The translations under genes and the position numbers were made by a program. 64,000 nt of DNA from Serinicoccus profundi (lineage in GTDB: Bacteria > Actinomycetota > Actinomycetes > Actinomycetales > Dermatophilaceae). Positions 37,008 to 45,024 of the stretch are shown in pieces; positions within the stretch are counted from its first letter, which is position 1, and every line of letters starts with the position of its first letter. The notes beneath the pieces were generated by a model. That model did not search any database and had not been told where the DNA came from. It worked only from the letters and a program-made list of their open reading frames with translations. Where the stretch lies: contig NZ_CP042862.1 in NCBI RefSeq assembly GCF_008001015.1, positions 1,550,001-1,614,000 on the forward strand, read 5' to 3'.

Positions 37008-37907
37008 ATGTCCGAGCCCACCCAGCCCACCACCGGCACCACCCGCGTCAAGCGCGGCATGGCCGACATGCTCAAGGGCGGCGTCATCATGGACGTCGTC
37101 ACCGCCGAGCAGGCCAAGATCGCCGAGGACGCGGGCGCCGTCGCCGTCATGGCGCTCGAGCGGGTCCCCGCGGACATCCGGGCCCAGGGCGGCGTCTCGC
37201 GGATGAGCGACCCGGACATGATCGACAGCATCATCGAGGCCGTCTCGATCCCCGTCATGGCCAAGGCCCGCATCGGCCACTTCGTCGAGGCGCAGGTGCT
37301 GCAGAGCCTCGGCGTCGACTACATCGACGAGTCCGAGGTGCTGACCCCGGCCGACTACGCCAACCACATCGACAAGTGGGCCTTCACCGTGCCCTTCGTC
37401 TGCGGCGCGACCAACCTCGGTGAGGCGCTGCGCCGGATCACCGAGGGCGCGGCGATGATCCGTTCCAAGGGCGAGGCCGGCACCGGCGACGTCTCCAACG
37501 CCACCACCCACATGCGCGCGATCCGCGGCGAGATCAACCGGCTCACCTCGCTGGCGCAGGACGAGCTCTACGTCGCGGCCAAGGAGCTGCAGGCCCCCTA
37601 CGAGCTCGTCAAGGAGGTCGCCGGCTCCGGCAAGCTCCCGGTCGTGCTCTTCACCGCTGGCGGCATCGCCACCCCGGCCGACGCGGCGATGATGATGCAG
37701 CTCGGTGCCGAGGGCGTCTTCGTCGGCTCCGGCATCTTCAAGTCGGGCAACCCCGAGCAGCGCGCCGCCGCGATCGTCAAGGCCACGACCTTCCACGACG
37801 ACCCGGACACCATCGCGGAGGTCTCGCGCGGCCTGGGCGAGGCCATGGTCGGCATCAACGTCGACGACATCCCGCAGCCGCACCGGCTCGCCGAGCGCGG
37901 CTGGTAG
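37008..37907 (+). CDS. pdxS: pyridoxal 5'-phosphate synthase lyase subunit PdxS
   Basis: A 299-residue TIM-barrel enzyme with [18 protein letters not shown] at the start, the ribose-phosphate lysine in [17 protein letters not shown] (~80), the second phosphate-site region [34 protein letters not shown], and an intact C terminus. It makes PLP from ribose 5-phosphate, glyceraldehyde 3-phosphate and ammonia supplied by PdxT. Its last 54 coding bases are the left attachment repeat of the inserted island. The stop TAG at 37905-37907 is island-derived; the repeat copy at 45 kb carries TGA. The protein is unchanged by the insertion. pdxT is displaced to 46985. Confidence 0.97.
37850..37905 (+). repeat. 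attL: 56-bp direct repeat in pdxS 3' end
   Basis: Identical over 56 bp to 44969-45024. It covers the final codons of pdxS ([18 protein letters not shown]) and the first base of the stop codon. Confidence 0.95.
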
Positions 37908-38238
37908 TAGCTGATTACGAGGCGATTCGGCCCACACCGCCGGCGTTTGGTGGTGTGGGTCCAGCCAGCCTCATGCGCTCAGCAGCGTGACCCATGCCGT
38001 GGTCCAAACTGGGTTCCAGCATCCGGGTGGTGCCTAGGGAATCACGCAGTGATGTGGTCGCTGCGCCCCTGACCGGGCAGCAGCCAACTTGGGGGCCGGG
38101 CGTTCGTTGGGTCAGTCGCTCGGACAAACCAGGTCCCTCGGCCCCGTCTCCCAAGGGATGTCGGTCCCCGCGTTTACCATGACCCTACGGATGAAGTGCC
38201 CCCAACCCGGCGGTGCACCCGGGTCAACAGGGGAGAGC
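37908..38238. other. island left non-coding region
   Basis: 331 bases from the pdxS stop to the methyltransferase ATG. It contains the hairpin at 37931-37959 and AT-richer stretches that could hold the methyltransferase promoter. GGGGAGAGC lies directly before ATG 38239. I see no gene in it. Confidence 0.6.
37931..37959 (+). terminator. 11-bp hairpin after pdxS
   Basis: CCCACACCGCC (37931-37941) pairs with GGTGGTGTGGG (37949-37959) with one G-T wobble and a 7-nt loop. It is island DNA and would end the pdxS transcript 24 bp after its new stop. Confidence 0.65.
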
Positions 38239-39462
38239 ATGTCGACCGTTGCGAACCGCACGTCCAGTCTCAACGCAGCGAAGGCGGCGAAGAACGACGA
38301 GTTCTACACGCAGTGGGCCGACATCGAGCGCGAGGTCAACGCCTACCTGGAGTTCGACCCCGACGTGTTCCGGGACAAGGTCGTGCTGCTCCCGTGCGAC
38401 GACCCGGAGTGGAGCAACTTCGCGAAGTTCTTCGCCCTGCACTTCGTGAACCTCGGTCTAAAGAAGCTCATCTCGGCGTCCTACGCACCGGACAGCAACC
38501 CGGCGACCTTCTCCTATGAGCCGACGCTCTTTGAGCTGGACGACCCGAAGTTCGACCCCACGAAGTCGCGAGCCAACGGCAAGAAGTTCATCCTCGAGCC
38601 GAAGGACCTCAACGGGGACGACGTCATCAACATCGATGATCTCCATTGGGAGTACCTCGAGGGCGACGGCGACTTCCGCAGCGCAGAGGTGACCGCTCTT
38701 CGCGACGAAGCCGACATCATCATCACCAACCCTCCTTTCAGTCTTTTCCGCGAGTTTTTGACGTGGATACAAGAGGGCGGGAAGCAGTTCTCGATCATCG
38801 GCAATGAGAATGCCATCGCCTACAAGAACGTCTTCCGGCTGATCAAGGACAACAAGATCTGGAAGGGCGCGACGGCGAACAGCACCGACATGGTGTTCGC
38901 TGTGCCCAAGGGCACGGTGGTGAAGGAGGCGGACCGGCTCAAGGCCGAGAAGCTGGGCTACCCCTCGGACGGCGAGCACGAGTACACGCGTCTGGGGAAC
39001 TCCTGCTGGTTCACCAACATCGAACACGGTCGGCGTCACGAGCCGTTGCAGCTCATGTCAATGGAGGACAACCTCAGGTACAACAAGAAATTGGTCTCGA
39101 CTCTCGACGGTGGCACCGAGTACCAGCGCTACGACAACTTCGATGCGATCGAGGTCCCGTACACGGACGCGATCCCCTCCGATTACGACGGTGTGATGGG
39201 CGTTCCGATCACATGGCTCGCCAAGTACAACCCCGACCAGTTCGAGATCCTCGGCACCGACGAGACCGATTACGAGCCGACGAAGACCTACAAGTCCAAG
39301 CGCAAGGTCGTGAACGGCAGCCCGGTCAAGTCGAACACCGGGTCTGGCGGTGGTTACATCCGCGCCGAGTCGTTCGGGTCGGGTACCTTCTTCGACGTGG
39401 GTTACCCCGTCAAGAGGATGTACAAGCGAATCTTTATCCGTCACAGGAAGGCCGCCTCGTGA
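38239..39462 (+). CDS. EcoRI-type adenine-specific DNA methyltransferase
   Basis: A 407-residue enzyme resembling M.EcoRI-family N6-adenine methyltransferases. [21 protein letters not shown] opens the protein, the SAM side has [22 protein letters not shown], and the catalytic motif IV is [15 protein letters not shown] (~residue 165-180), followed by [16 protein letters not shown]. Near the end, [13 protein letters not shown] lies in the recognition region. It would methylate adenine in a specific DNA site, protecting it from the nuclease next door. It overlaps the downstream DUF262-HNH gene by GTGA, so the two are made together. The recognition sequence cannot be read from the protein. Confidence 0.88.
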
Positions 39463-43654: not shown

Positions 43655-44552
43655 ATGCCACGGAGGATGACGCCCGCGCTGGCGCGAGCAGCGATTCGGT
43701 CTGCGCAGCAGAAGCAGGCGATTGACAAGTACAACCGCGAGGTGCGCCTGCACAGCGGCGCGGTGAACAAGGCTGTCAACGACTTCAACCGCGAGGTACG
43801 TGCCTATAACGCCAAGGCGCGGGCACACAACTCCAGAGTCGAGAACCAGCGACAGCGGCTCAATCAGGAGATCCGGCGACTCCAGTCCCGCCGGACCCCG
43901 ACGACGTTCGTCACCTACAGGACGTCGGTCACGACCCTGACACAGACATACATGGCGGCCGAGACACGTCTTGCGAGTGGACACCTGACGAACGCTGGAC
44001 GCGAACTCGTCAACCGCGGCAGCGAAGAGGCCGGCAACAGCGTCTACCTGCTGAACGCCATGGATGGCGATGGCGCTGCCGAGGACGACCCCACCGAGGA
44101 GGAGCTTCGCGGCCCGAGTATCCAGTCAGAACTCGCGGCCTTCGGTCAGGATCCCGTGGACCGATGGACTGGCGCGCTGTTCTCTCTCAGCCCACGAAGC
44201 CCGATGCCGCGCGGCACTTCTGCACGAGCGCTCGCGAGGTTCTGATCGCGATGCTCGACCAGGAAGCACCAGATGCGGCCGTCCCGCGGAGCTTCCTGAT
44301 TGCGACAAGACCGACAAGGGCCCGCCGACTCGGCGCGCGAAGGTCCGGTACCTGCTTGGGCGGAAAGGTATCGACGACAAGGCCCTGGAGGATCTCGTGG
44401 ACGAAGACATGAACAACGTGCTCGCGTTGTTCCGGGATTTCAACGACGGCACGCATGGCCATGCGGGGCGCTTCACGGTCACGCATTTGATCGCCATTCG
44501 GATGCGTGTCGAGTCGGCGATCACGTTCATCCACGCCCTGTGCAGGGCCTAA
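43655..44552 (+). pseudogene. putative pPIWI-associated nuclease-like protein, two frameshifts
   Basis: The first ~185 residues (MPRRMTPALARAAIRSAQQK, then repeated helical NREV-R-x-YN units VNDFNREVRAYNAKARAHN, a coiled coil) are followed in the next frame by TKPDAARHFCTSAREVLIAMLDQEAPDAAV and in the third by ELPDCDKTDKGPPTRRAKVRYLLGRKG, LVDEDMNNVLALFRDFNDGTHGHAG and RVESAITFIHALCRA. Single-base losses near 44201-44204 and 44284-44290 would restore one ~300-residue protein. From memory, proteins with this coiled coil plus a C-terminal D-G-T-H-G-x-A-G block are annotated as predicted pPIWI-associating nucleases; I could not verify this. Otherwise unrecognised. Confidence 0.5.
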
Positions 44553-44968
44553 CGTTGGTACTCACTCAGAGCCCGGCCTCAGTCTTGCTGCGGCTGCGAC
44601 CCGGTGTCCGCGCGCGTCGTTGAGACACTCCTGCTGCACCGCCGGTGGCAGCGAACCCAGATGGCCGCCATCTTCGTCCAGAACGTCGCCCAAGCTTCAG
44701 CCTCGGTGGTCGCCATATTGTTCGGCGCGAGGCCGCTCTGGTAACCGCACACGCACCCGCACGAGGGACACGCTCGGCCCGGGGTAGTCGGTCCACGGTC
44801 GATGGAAATTGCGCGCGCTCTTCCAAGGTACGGAGCGCACGCGCGAAGACCCCACCTATGCAGGCGGACAATCGGGACGGTGCCTGAGCACTGGACTAAT
44901 CTCGTCGGTATGCCCATACGCGTAGCAGCACCTTGGTCCGACGCCCGAAGTTCGTCAAGAATGGACCA
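44553..44968. other. island right non-coding region
   Basis: About 415 bases with only short, unconvincing open frames. A minus-strand frame at about 44579-44770 contains CPSCGCVCGY, zinc-ribbon-like, and EAEAWATFWTKMAAIWVRC, and could be a decayed gene. No recombinase homology seen. ATG 44961 runs in frame into attR, giving the 21-residue frame [21 protein letters not shown]. Confidence 0.45.
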
Positions 44969-45024
44969 CGGCATCAACGTCGACGACATCCCGCAGCCGC
45001 ACCGGCTCGCCGAGCGCGGCTGGT
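44969..45024 (+). repeat. attR: 56-bp direct repeat of pdxS end
   Basis: Perfect copy of 37850-37905. It is followed by GA, giving TGA, the presumed original pdxS stop codon, so the chromosomal sequence resumes here. Confidence 0.95.

Follow-up and report, generated by a model that had tools for sequence, protein, structure and literature searches.

A 7.1-kb block of largely defence-like genes lies at the 3' end of a vitamin-B6 gene and appears to restore that end with a copy of its own. The DNA analysed here (the window) is 64,000 nucleotides of Serinicoccus profundi contig NZ_CP042862.1, positions 1,550,001 to 1,614,000, and the gene is pdxS, which encodes the pyridoxal 5'-phosphate synthase lyase subunit (37008..37907, + strand; NF003215, E 3e-159). 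The island behind pdxS carries predicted defence genes, has been integrated site-specifically and contains no detectable integrase; it is one of a set of pdxS insertions that have common ends and unrelated cargo. We consider it likely that the DNA from 37865 to 44968, together with part of a crossover core, is an integrated non-autonomous element whose family is set by its ends and which is moved by a site-specific recombinase acting in trans.

Sequence comparison within the window identified an exact 56-bp direct repeat on the + strand, with the left copy (attL) at 37850..37905 and the right copy (attR) at 44969..45024. All exact direct repeats of at least 30 bp in the window belong to this pair (27 overlapping 30-mers). 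A 43-mer taken from the repeat occurs at exactly two sites in the 3.48-Mb genome at up to three mismatches, and reversed-pattern controls gave 0. The coding region of pdxS ends at 37904 and is closed by a TAG stop codon at 37905-37907; the repeat therefore consists of 55 coding bases and the first T of the stop codon. The right copy is followed by GA, which completes a TGA stop codon (45024-45026), and then by the native flank. The 7,063 bp between the repeats have a GC content of 63.2%, compared with 71.8% and 72.7% in the flanks, and the lowest value among 171 windows of equal length outside the island is 68.0%. An earlier note on this DNA, made from the sequence alone, had described an exact 56-bp repeat of the pdxS tail, a left copy that completes pdxS with TAG, a right copy that rejoins the chromosome with TGA, and lower GC between them. 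Each of these was borne out, and only its count of 54 coding bases plus two has to be corrected.

The repeat is pdxS sequence, and the second copy could be read as what is left of a duplicated and since decayed pdxS, with ordinary genes in between. The homology ends abruptly at both sides of the repeat (14/60 identical bases upstream and 20/60 downstream), which indicates that the second copy is not such a duplicate. The repetition is confined to the last 55 coding bases, and a related genome has a single copy at the empty site; a decayed duplicate, which the earlier note had named as one of two outcomes that would speak against integration, is contradicted by these data and is extremely improbable.

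The empty site was found in G016 (L157), a genome of the same genus, in which a single pdxS tail is followed by TGA and by the right flank of the window. When the window flanks are joined at one repeat copy, they match G016 continuously across the junction over 1,656 columns at 75.3% identity, and the island sequence has no match in the 20 kb of G016 compared. The insertion is thus derived, with TGA and the right flank representing the native state, and it leaves the flank unchanged. The pdxS 3' end is present in 31/31 genomes of the genus, the window's own included, and a second strong copy occurs only in the window genome (E 1e-22; next matches 1e-5). By pdxS, the closest named relatives are Serinicoccus (L033, L034; 96% protein identity). 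The earlier note had proposed site-specific integration that rebuilds its target gene, and had suggested looking for an empty site and for other islands ending at pdxS. Both were found, in support of that proposal; what the note did not mention is that no integrase was found in the island and that relatives share its ends and not its cargo.

Other insertions at pdxS were surveyed by direct repeats of the tail in 184 distinct loci for which 5 kb or more of downstream sequence was available (control maximum 17, computed for 144). Scores of at most 18 were obtained for 183 of the 184, and of at most 16 for 20 loci scored separately. The only locus above background, L107 (Gordonia alkanivorans), has a 29-bp exact repeat, 1,620 bp apart, with one main gene containing DUF4268 between the copies, and beyond the insert its flank continues like that of Gordonia rhizosphera, a species with no insertion at this site. 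Among 59 genomes of this genus, the tail was detected in 57, with two matches in six and a second copy just downstream in two, G548 (the genome of L107) and G556 (L358). The G556 copies are 55 bp long with one mismatch, lie 2,980 bp apart and enclose an open reading frame (ORF) that by eye resembles alpha/beta-hydrolases, together with a second, small ORF and a gene for a PadR regulator. In G1133 (L418), a 2.38-kb stretch separates pdxS from the right copy and encodes a GmrSD protein in which both GmrSD domains and DUF5655 are present. G074 (L145), from another genus of the window's family, carries MazEF-like cargo and a diverged 50-base second copy, and G015 (L303), which belongs to the window's genus, combines the left end with 2.6 kb of cargo and a 20/23 copy before pdxT; by eye, its first cargo ORF looks like the beginning of that in L418. 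L271 (G418) represents another family of the order, and a phytase is among its downstream cargo. These elements are compact, 0.8 to 3 kb, and their cargo is unrelated (GmrSD, MazEF-like, hydrolase/PadR, phytase). L103 was also considered as an insertion and was rejected. The pdxS 3' end of L227 carries a 20-base exact tandem duplication that includes the stop codon, possibly a product of slippage or a scar.

The insertions are tied together by their right ends. Directly 5' of the right copy lie ATGGACCA in the window, TTGGACCA in G556 and TTGGACC in G074, and the right end that they have in common consists of (T/A)TGGACC(A/G) and, after a short gap, GCATC(A/G)ACGTCGA at the pdxS tail sequence. 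In the window, this motif is ATGGACCACGG (44961..44971, + strand), which adjoins and enters the core. The motif precedes a pdxS-tail copy in five genomes: the window's, G556, G1133, G074 and G418. Of the last four, one is a Gordonia, one is another member of the Gordonia family, one belongs to a different genus within the window's family and one to a third family. It was first seen in the window, L358 and L145 and then used as a probe, which found G1133 and L271; these two are consequently not independent evidence for the motif itself. The independent evidence that they provide is the pdxS tail behind the motif and, for G1133, the insertion itself.

The probe was scanned at up to three mismatches. 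Among 394 genomes of the class, 30 match, and the only exact match is the right end of the window; among 301 genomes of the Gordonia family, 32 match, and the one with a single mismatch is G1133, where the pdxS tail follows. Only G1133 matches among 150 genomes of its own genus. The other matches, at two or three mismatches, were judged from their letters to be chance, and a scan of 40 of the matching loci (20 per genome set, true ends included) gave no further case within three mismatches. Across all pdxS loci gathered, 294 core occurrences include 13 within six mismatches of the 23-mer, and the distinct ones within two mismatches are only those of the window, L358, L418/L407, L145 and L271. 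For comparison, the frequency of TTGGACC across the window, with one mismatch allowed, is about 0.0011 per position. A second near match to the probe in the window, with two mismatches at 25391-25415, is most likely chance.

At the left end, a hairpin directly follows the rebuilt stop codon in each of these insertions, as judged by folding. The terminator-like hairpin of the window lies at 37929..37961 (+ strand) and is preceded by GAGGCGATTCG. In a comparison of left ends (control maximum 31 in 1,120 segments), the window scores 44 to 34 against L026 (the same locus as L303), L065, L047, L145 and L079, and the hairpin is absent from the uninserted relatives read for the window, L107, L145 and L303. 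The left end of L107 is not among the best matches of the window, and its comparison with the left end of L079 gives a score of 38 (control maximum 35). The hairpin alone was rejected as a marker: long terminator hairpins follow ATTCG in Nocardia pdxS (L046, L048, L074, L094). The Sinomonas loci L047 and L065 share the left-end sequence, but by eye their extra DNA holds metabolic genes and no right end was found, and they were not counted.

The window carries a further left subterminal motif, CCGTGGTCCAA (37997..38007, + strand), which is the reverse complement of TTGGACCACGG and thus an inverted copy of the right-end motif. In a scan of 293 loci (247 distinct) and the window, with up to one mismatch allowed, only the window, G556 (L358, L340) and L271 have CCGTGGTCCAA within 300 bases after the stop codon of the pdxS tail. 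Positions 1-420 of L271 join the right-end motif, core, stop codon, hairpin and CCGTGGTCCAA in one stretch, an arrangement as would be expected for a tandem array, an attP or a circle junction. TTTGGACCA at +3595 in L271 was tried as another end and rejected, with no significant core behind it (18 and 20, control maximum 31).

Where does the element begin? In both G1133 and G074, the two tail copies agree to position -41 from the stop codon and first differ at -40, which places the probable crossover in GGCATCAACGTCGA. The upstream pdxS of G074 is nearest to that of G073, from the same genus (94.6%, among the loci compared). The right copy of G074 equals the native tail of G073 at 22/22 bases (-24 to -3), and the left tail differs in 5/40. 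The right copy of G1133 agrees with its relative G1316 at 13/13 diagnostic positions, a case that is consistent with the same crossover rather than decisive, because left-type tails also occur among the 16 relatives read. By analogy with these two relatives, the crossover core of the window would be CGGCATCAACGTCGA (37850..37864, + strand; -55 to -41 from the stop codon), and the last 40 bases of pdxS with TAG (37865..37907, + strand), as well as the hairpin, would have been supplied by the element. That the two tails of the window are identical is unsurprising, as this 64-base sequence is also found unchanged in three other genomes of the family.

Foreign DNA that carries a piece of pdxS could also enter by homologous or illegitimate recombination, for example after transformation, with no site-specific recombinase involved. 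This would account for the lack of a recombinase in the elements and for repeats of varying length (56, 55, about 50 and 29 bp), and a MazEF-like module behind pdxS may have spread with flanking DNA in this way. The module lies at +1 to +1380 in L079, +38 to +663 in L143 and +59 to +687 in L145, with 81-86% DNA identity across three genera and what we take to be two families; it is preceded by a VapC-like gene in L079 and directly follows pdxS in L143, and no second pdxS-tail copy was found in either of these two loci. Such recombination is nevertheless improbable: in four genomes from two families, the motif is the same and the start of the right copy behind it varies by no more than three positions (-55 to -53), and the window flank is unchanged by the insertion.

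The recombinase was sought inside the island, around pdxS and across genomes. No significant match to recombinase families, and no match to transfer-gene families, was obtained for the ten island ORFs. A profile built from eight PF00589 matches of the window genome was then applied to island ORFs of at least 40 aa and to 215 pdxS loci (209 of them distinct, and 205 extending roughly 10 kb or further downstream), and it matched neither the island ORFs nor anything within 13 kb downstream of pdxS in the 215 loci. Its matches lie at +13.6, +16.1 and +17.5 kb (L317, L146 and L147), at -6.4 kb (L073) and in the plasmid locus L323. PF00589 genes do exist in the element-bearing genomes. The window genome has 12 matches, the nearest at 1,546,268-1,546,768 (about 41 kb from the island) and at 1,629,572 (about 35 kb), and all six other genomes searched (G015, G074, G418, G548, G556, G1133) have such genes. 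Within 25 kb of the pdxS tail on the assembled contig, none was found in any of the seven. The nearest is at 28 kb in G015, more than 140 kb in G418 and 280 kb in G556, and the contigs that carry the tail in G1133, G074 and G548 have none; several of these contigs are short, so that the distances are a bound and not a proof. Separately, adjacent tyrosine-recombinase groups occur in the window genome (G000:C1) at 88627-92345, 1310737-1312331 and 1545174-1546768, with two recombinases of the same scores in the three places. The last group lies about 3 kb before the window. These groups presumably resemble recombinase-in-trio (RIT) elements.

An alternative reading of the missing integrase is decay, in which each insertion is the remnant of an autonomous element that lost its pdxS-specific integrase. 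Cis-mobilizable elements (CIMEs) are integrated between att-like repeats, lack integration and transfer genes and, in PMC5704250, are described as decayed integrative and conjugative elements (ICEs) or integrative and mobilizable elements (IMEs). The att-like ends and the absence of an integrase fit this published definition (PMC5704250), and a frameshifted nuclease gene in the right part of the island indicates that some decay has occurred. On the other hand, no autonomous version was found in the profile scan of the 215 loci or in the PF00589 search of the seven genomes, and the ends are kept while the cargo is unrelated, in elements of only 0.8 to 3 kb. We regard decay as unlikely, although it is the most probable of the alternatives considered here.

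The preferred reading, integration of a non-autonomous element by a recombinase in trans, would proceed as follows. The right end, (T/A)TGGACC(A/G) beside a 13-15-bp core equal to the pdxS codons for G-I-N-V-D, and the left end, formed by the last 40 pdxS bases, the stop codon, the hairpin and in some members the inverted CCGTGGTCCAA, would meet in a circular element. This circle would then be joined to the core in chromosomal pdxS by a site-specific recombinase that is produced elsewhere and is most likely of the tyrosine type. The pdxS tail of the element would restore the gene, the hairpin would end the transcript, and the native pdxS tail would be pushed to the right end of the element. 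More broadly, several actinobacterial families may harbour pdxS-dedicated cargo cassettes with a 40-base repair copy and a hairpin, a recombinase made elsewhere and possible tandem stacking (L271); we hold this wider picture tentatively, at slightly below even chances.

Several observations weigh against integration in trans. No recombinase for the elements was found (serine recombinases were not searched genome-wide), an excised circle was not seen, and the insertions are rare, which leaves room for independent losses of an integrase. The island ORF 43655-44245 matches the integrase arm-binding family PF17293 at E 0.31 and 12 bits (cut-off 22.6), which is insignificant and at the level of chance. 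L107 has the anatomy with a 29-bp repeat and without the TTGGACC motif. The copy in L303 is degenerate (20/23 over 23 bp) and near background (14, control 13), and that of L145 scores 16 in the repeat survey, within background. CCGTGGTCCAA is absent from L418, L145, L107 and L303, where the best matches have 5, 3, 2 and 3 mismatches and equal background. L271 covers only about 140 bases upstream of the right-end motif, a stretch in which pdxS was not seen, and the window left end scores 32 against L103 (control maximum 31), a locus without an insertion. At the crossover, the right copy of G074 resembles neither tail from -40 to -25, and the native tail of G1133 is ambiguous, as both tail types occur among the 16 relatives.

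The island is largely loaded with defence-like genes, as the earlier note had stated, according to family and PADLOC models. An EcoRI-type adenine-specific DNA methyltransferase (38239..39462, + strand; PF13651, E 1e-116; PADLOC MTase_II, E 1e-86) adjoins a GmrSD_N (DUF262) and HNH endonuclease, its probable restriction partner (39459..40625, + strand; PF03235, E 7e-21; PF01844, E 4e-8; PADLOC REase_II, E 5e-89). The adjoining genes agree with the PADLOC type II arrangement, and the pair at 38239-40625 is predicted to be a type II restriction-modification system. Behind it lie the three-Cys-motif partner protein TcmP (40654..41766, + strand; TIGR04474; PADLOC candidate PDC-M30A, E 7e-56) and, on the - strand, a DUF5131 (phage Gp37/Gp68) protein (41783..42535; PF07505, E 2e-102; PDC-M41B, E 1e-111; PDC-M30B, E 7e-108). 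Both PDC-M30 models are matched by this pair, with PDC-M41B slightly better for DUF5131, which suggests a candidate defence pair. Two hypothetical ORFs without a family match (42655..43056 and 43068..43340, both + strand) are followed by a remnant of a pPIWI-associating nuclease that is split over two frames (43655..44552, + strand; PF18165). The frame 44064-44552 matches profile positions 56-132 at E 2e-21, and the frame 43655-44245 matches positions 3-26 weakly, at E 0.013.

The first four genes of this cargo have a counterpart on the conjugative plasmid pYYL1.1 of Rhodococcus ruber (L323, 4955-12381), where the same methyltransferase, DUF262, TcmP and DUF5131 genes occur in the same order at 80-83% DNA identity, in three pieces. 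The module differs from that of the island in being plasmid-borne, with genes for a tyrosine recombinase and a hypothetical protein close by, and the pdxS core was not found in its locus. Matches to the pdxS tail itself were absent from 50,697 phage records, and viral contigs gave no match to the pdxS protein or an exact 28-mer. Fourteen plasmid records match the tail, three of which were inspected. Two Streptomyces plasmid matches (H11, H12) were rejected as loose att copies, since they lie in an ORF that by eye is transposase-like, and the first of two places in the Paenarthrobacter plasmid record H9 is an ordinary pdxS gene followed by other genes.

The earlier note had suspected that pdxS is not a well-known integration site, and no report of integration there was found among the papers listed in searches for pdxS or its product, a search whose scope excluded subscription papers and preprints. 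Passages of PMC4904568, PMC12843858 and PMC12025171 contain nothing on integration at pdxS. The elements described here add the protein-coding gene pdxS as a landing site, as well as sequence ends that identify elements without an integrase. Such elements would escape island finders whose starting point is an integrase gene, and the question that follows is by which recombinase they are moved if their ends are all that they share.

Integration into the 3' ends of genes is described in PMC5704250 for genomic islands and IMEs that carry a tyrosine recombinase. The window island resembles these in its direct repeat, which equals the target gene's 3' end, in the restoration of that gene and in the existence of an empty site. 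It differs in that no integrase was found inside it and in its target, pdxS, which did not turn up as an integration site in the literature searched. With CIMEs, it shares the position at a gene end between direct repeats and the lack of integration and transfer genes: attL and attR are kept, and neither gene class was found in the ten ORFs scanned. Unlike CIMEs, the elements here are compact, with unrelated cargo, precise shared ends and no autonomous parent found, and shared ends with unrelated cargo would argue against descent of the island from a decayed ICE or IME. Integron gene cassettes carry compact cargo, have no recombinase of their own and bear a hairpin near one end. The elements at pdxS differ from them in that they lie in a housekeeping gene with no nearby tyrosine recombinase and have a coding sequence as their repeat, and resemble them in their compact cargo, their lack of a recombinase, the hairpin at one end and the possible tandem accretion in L271.

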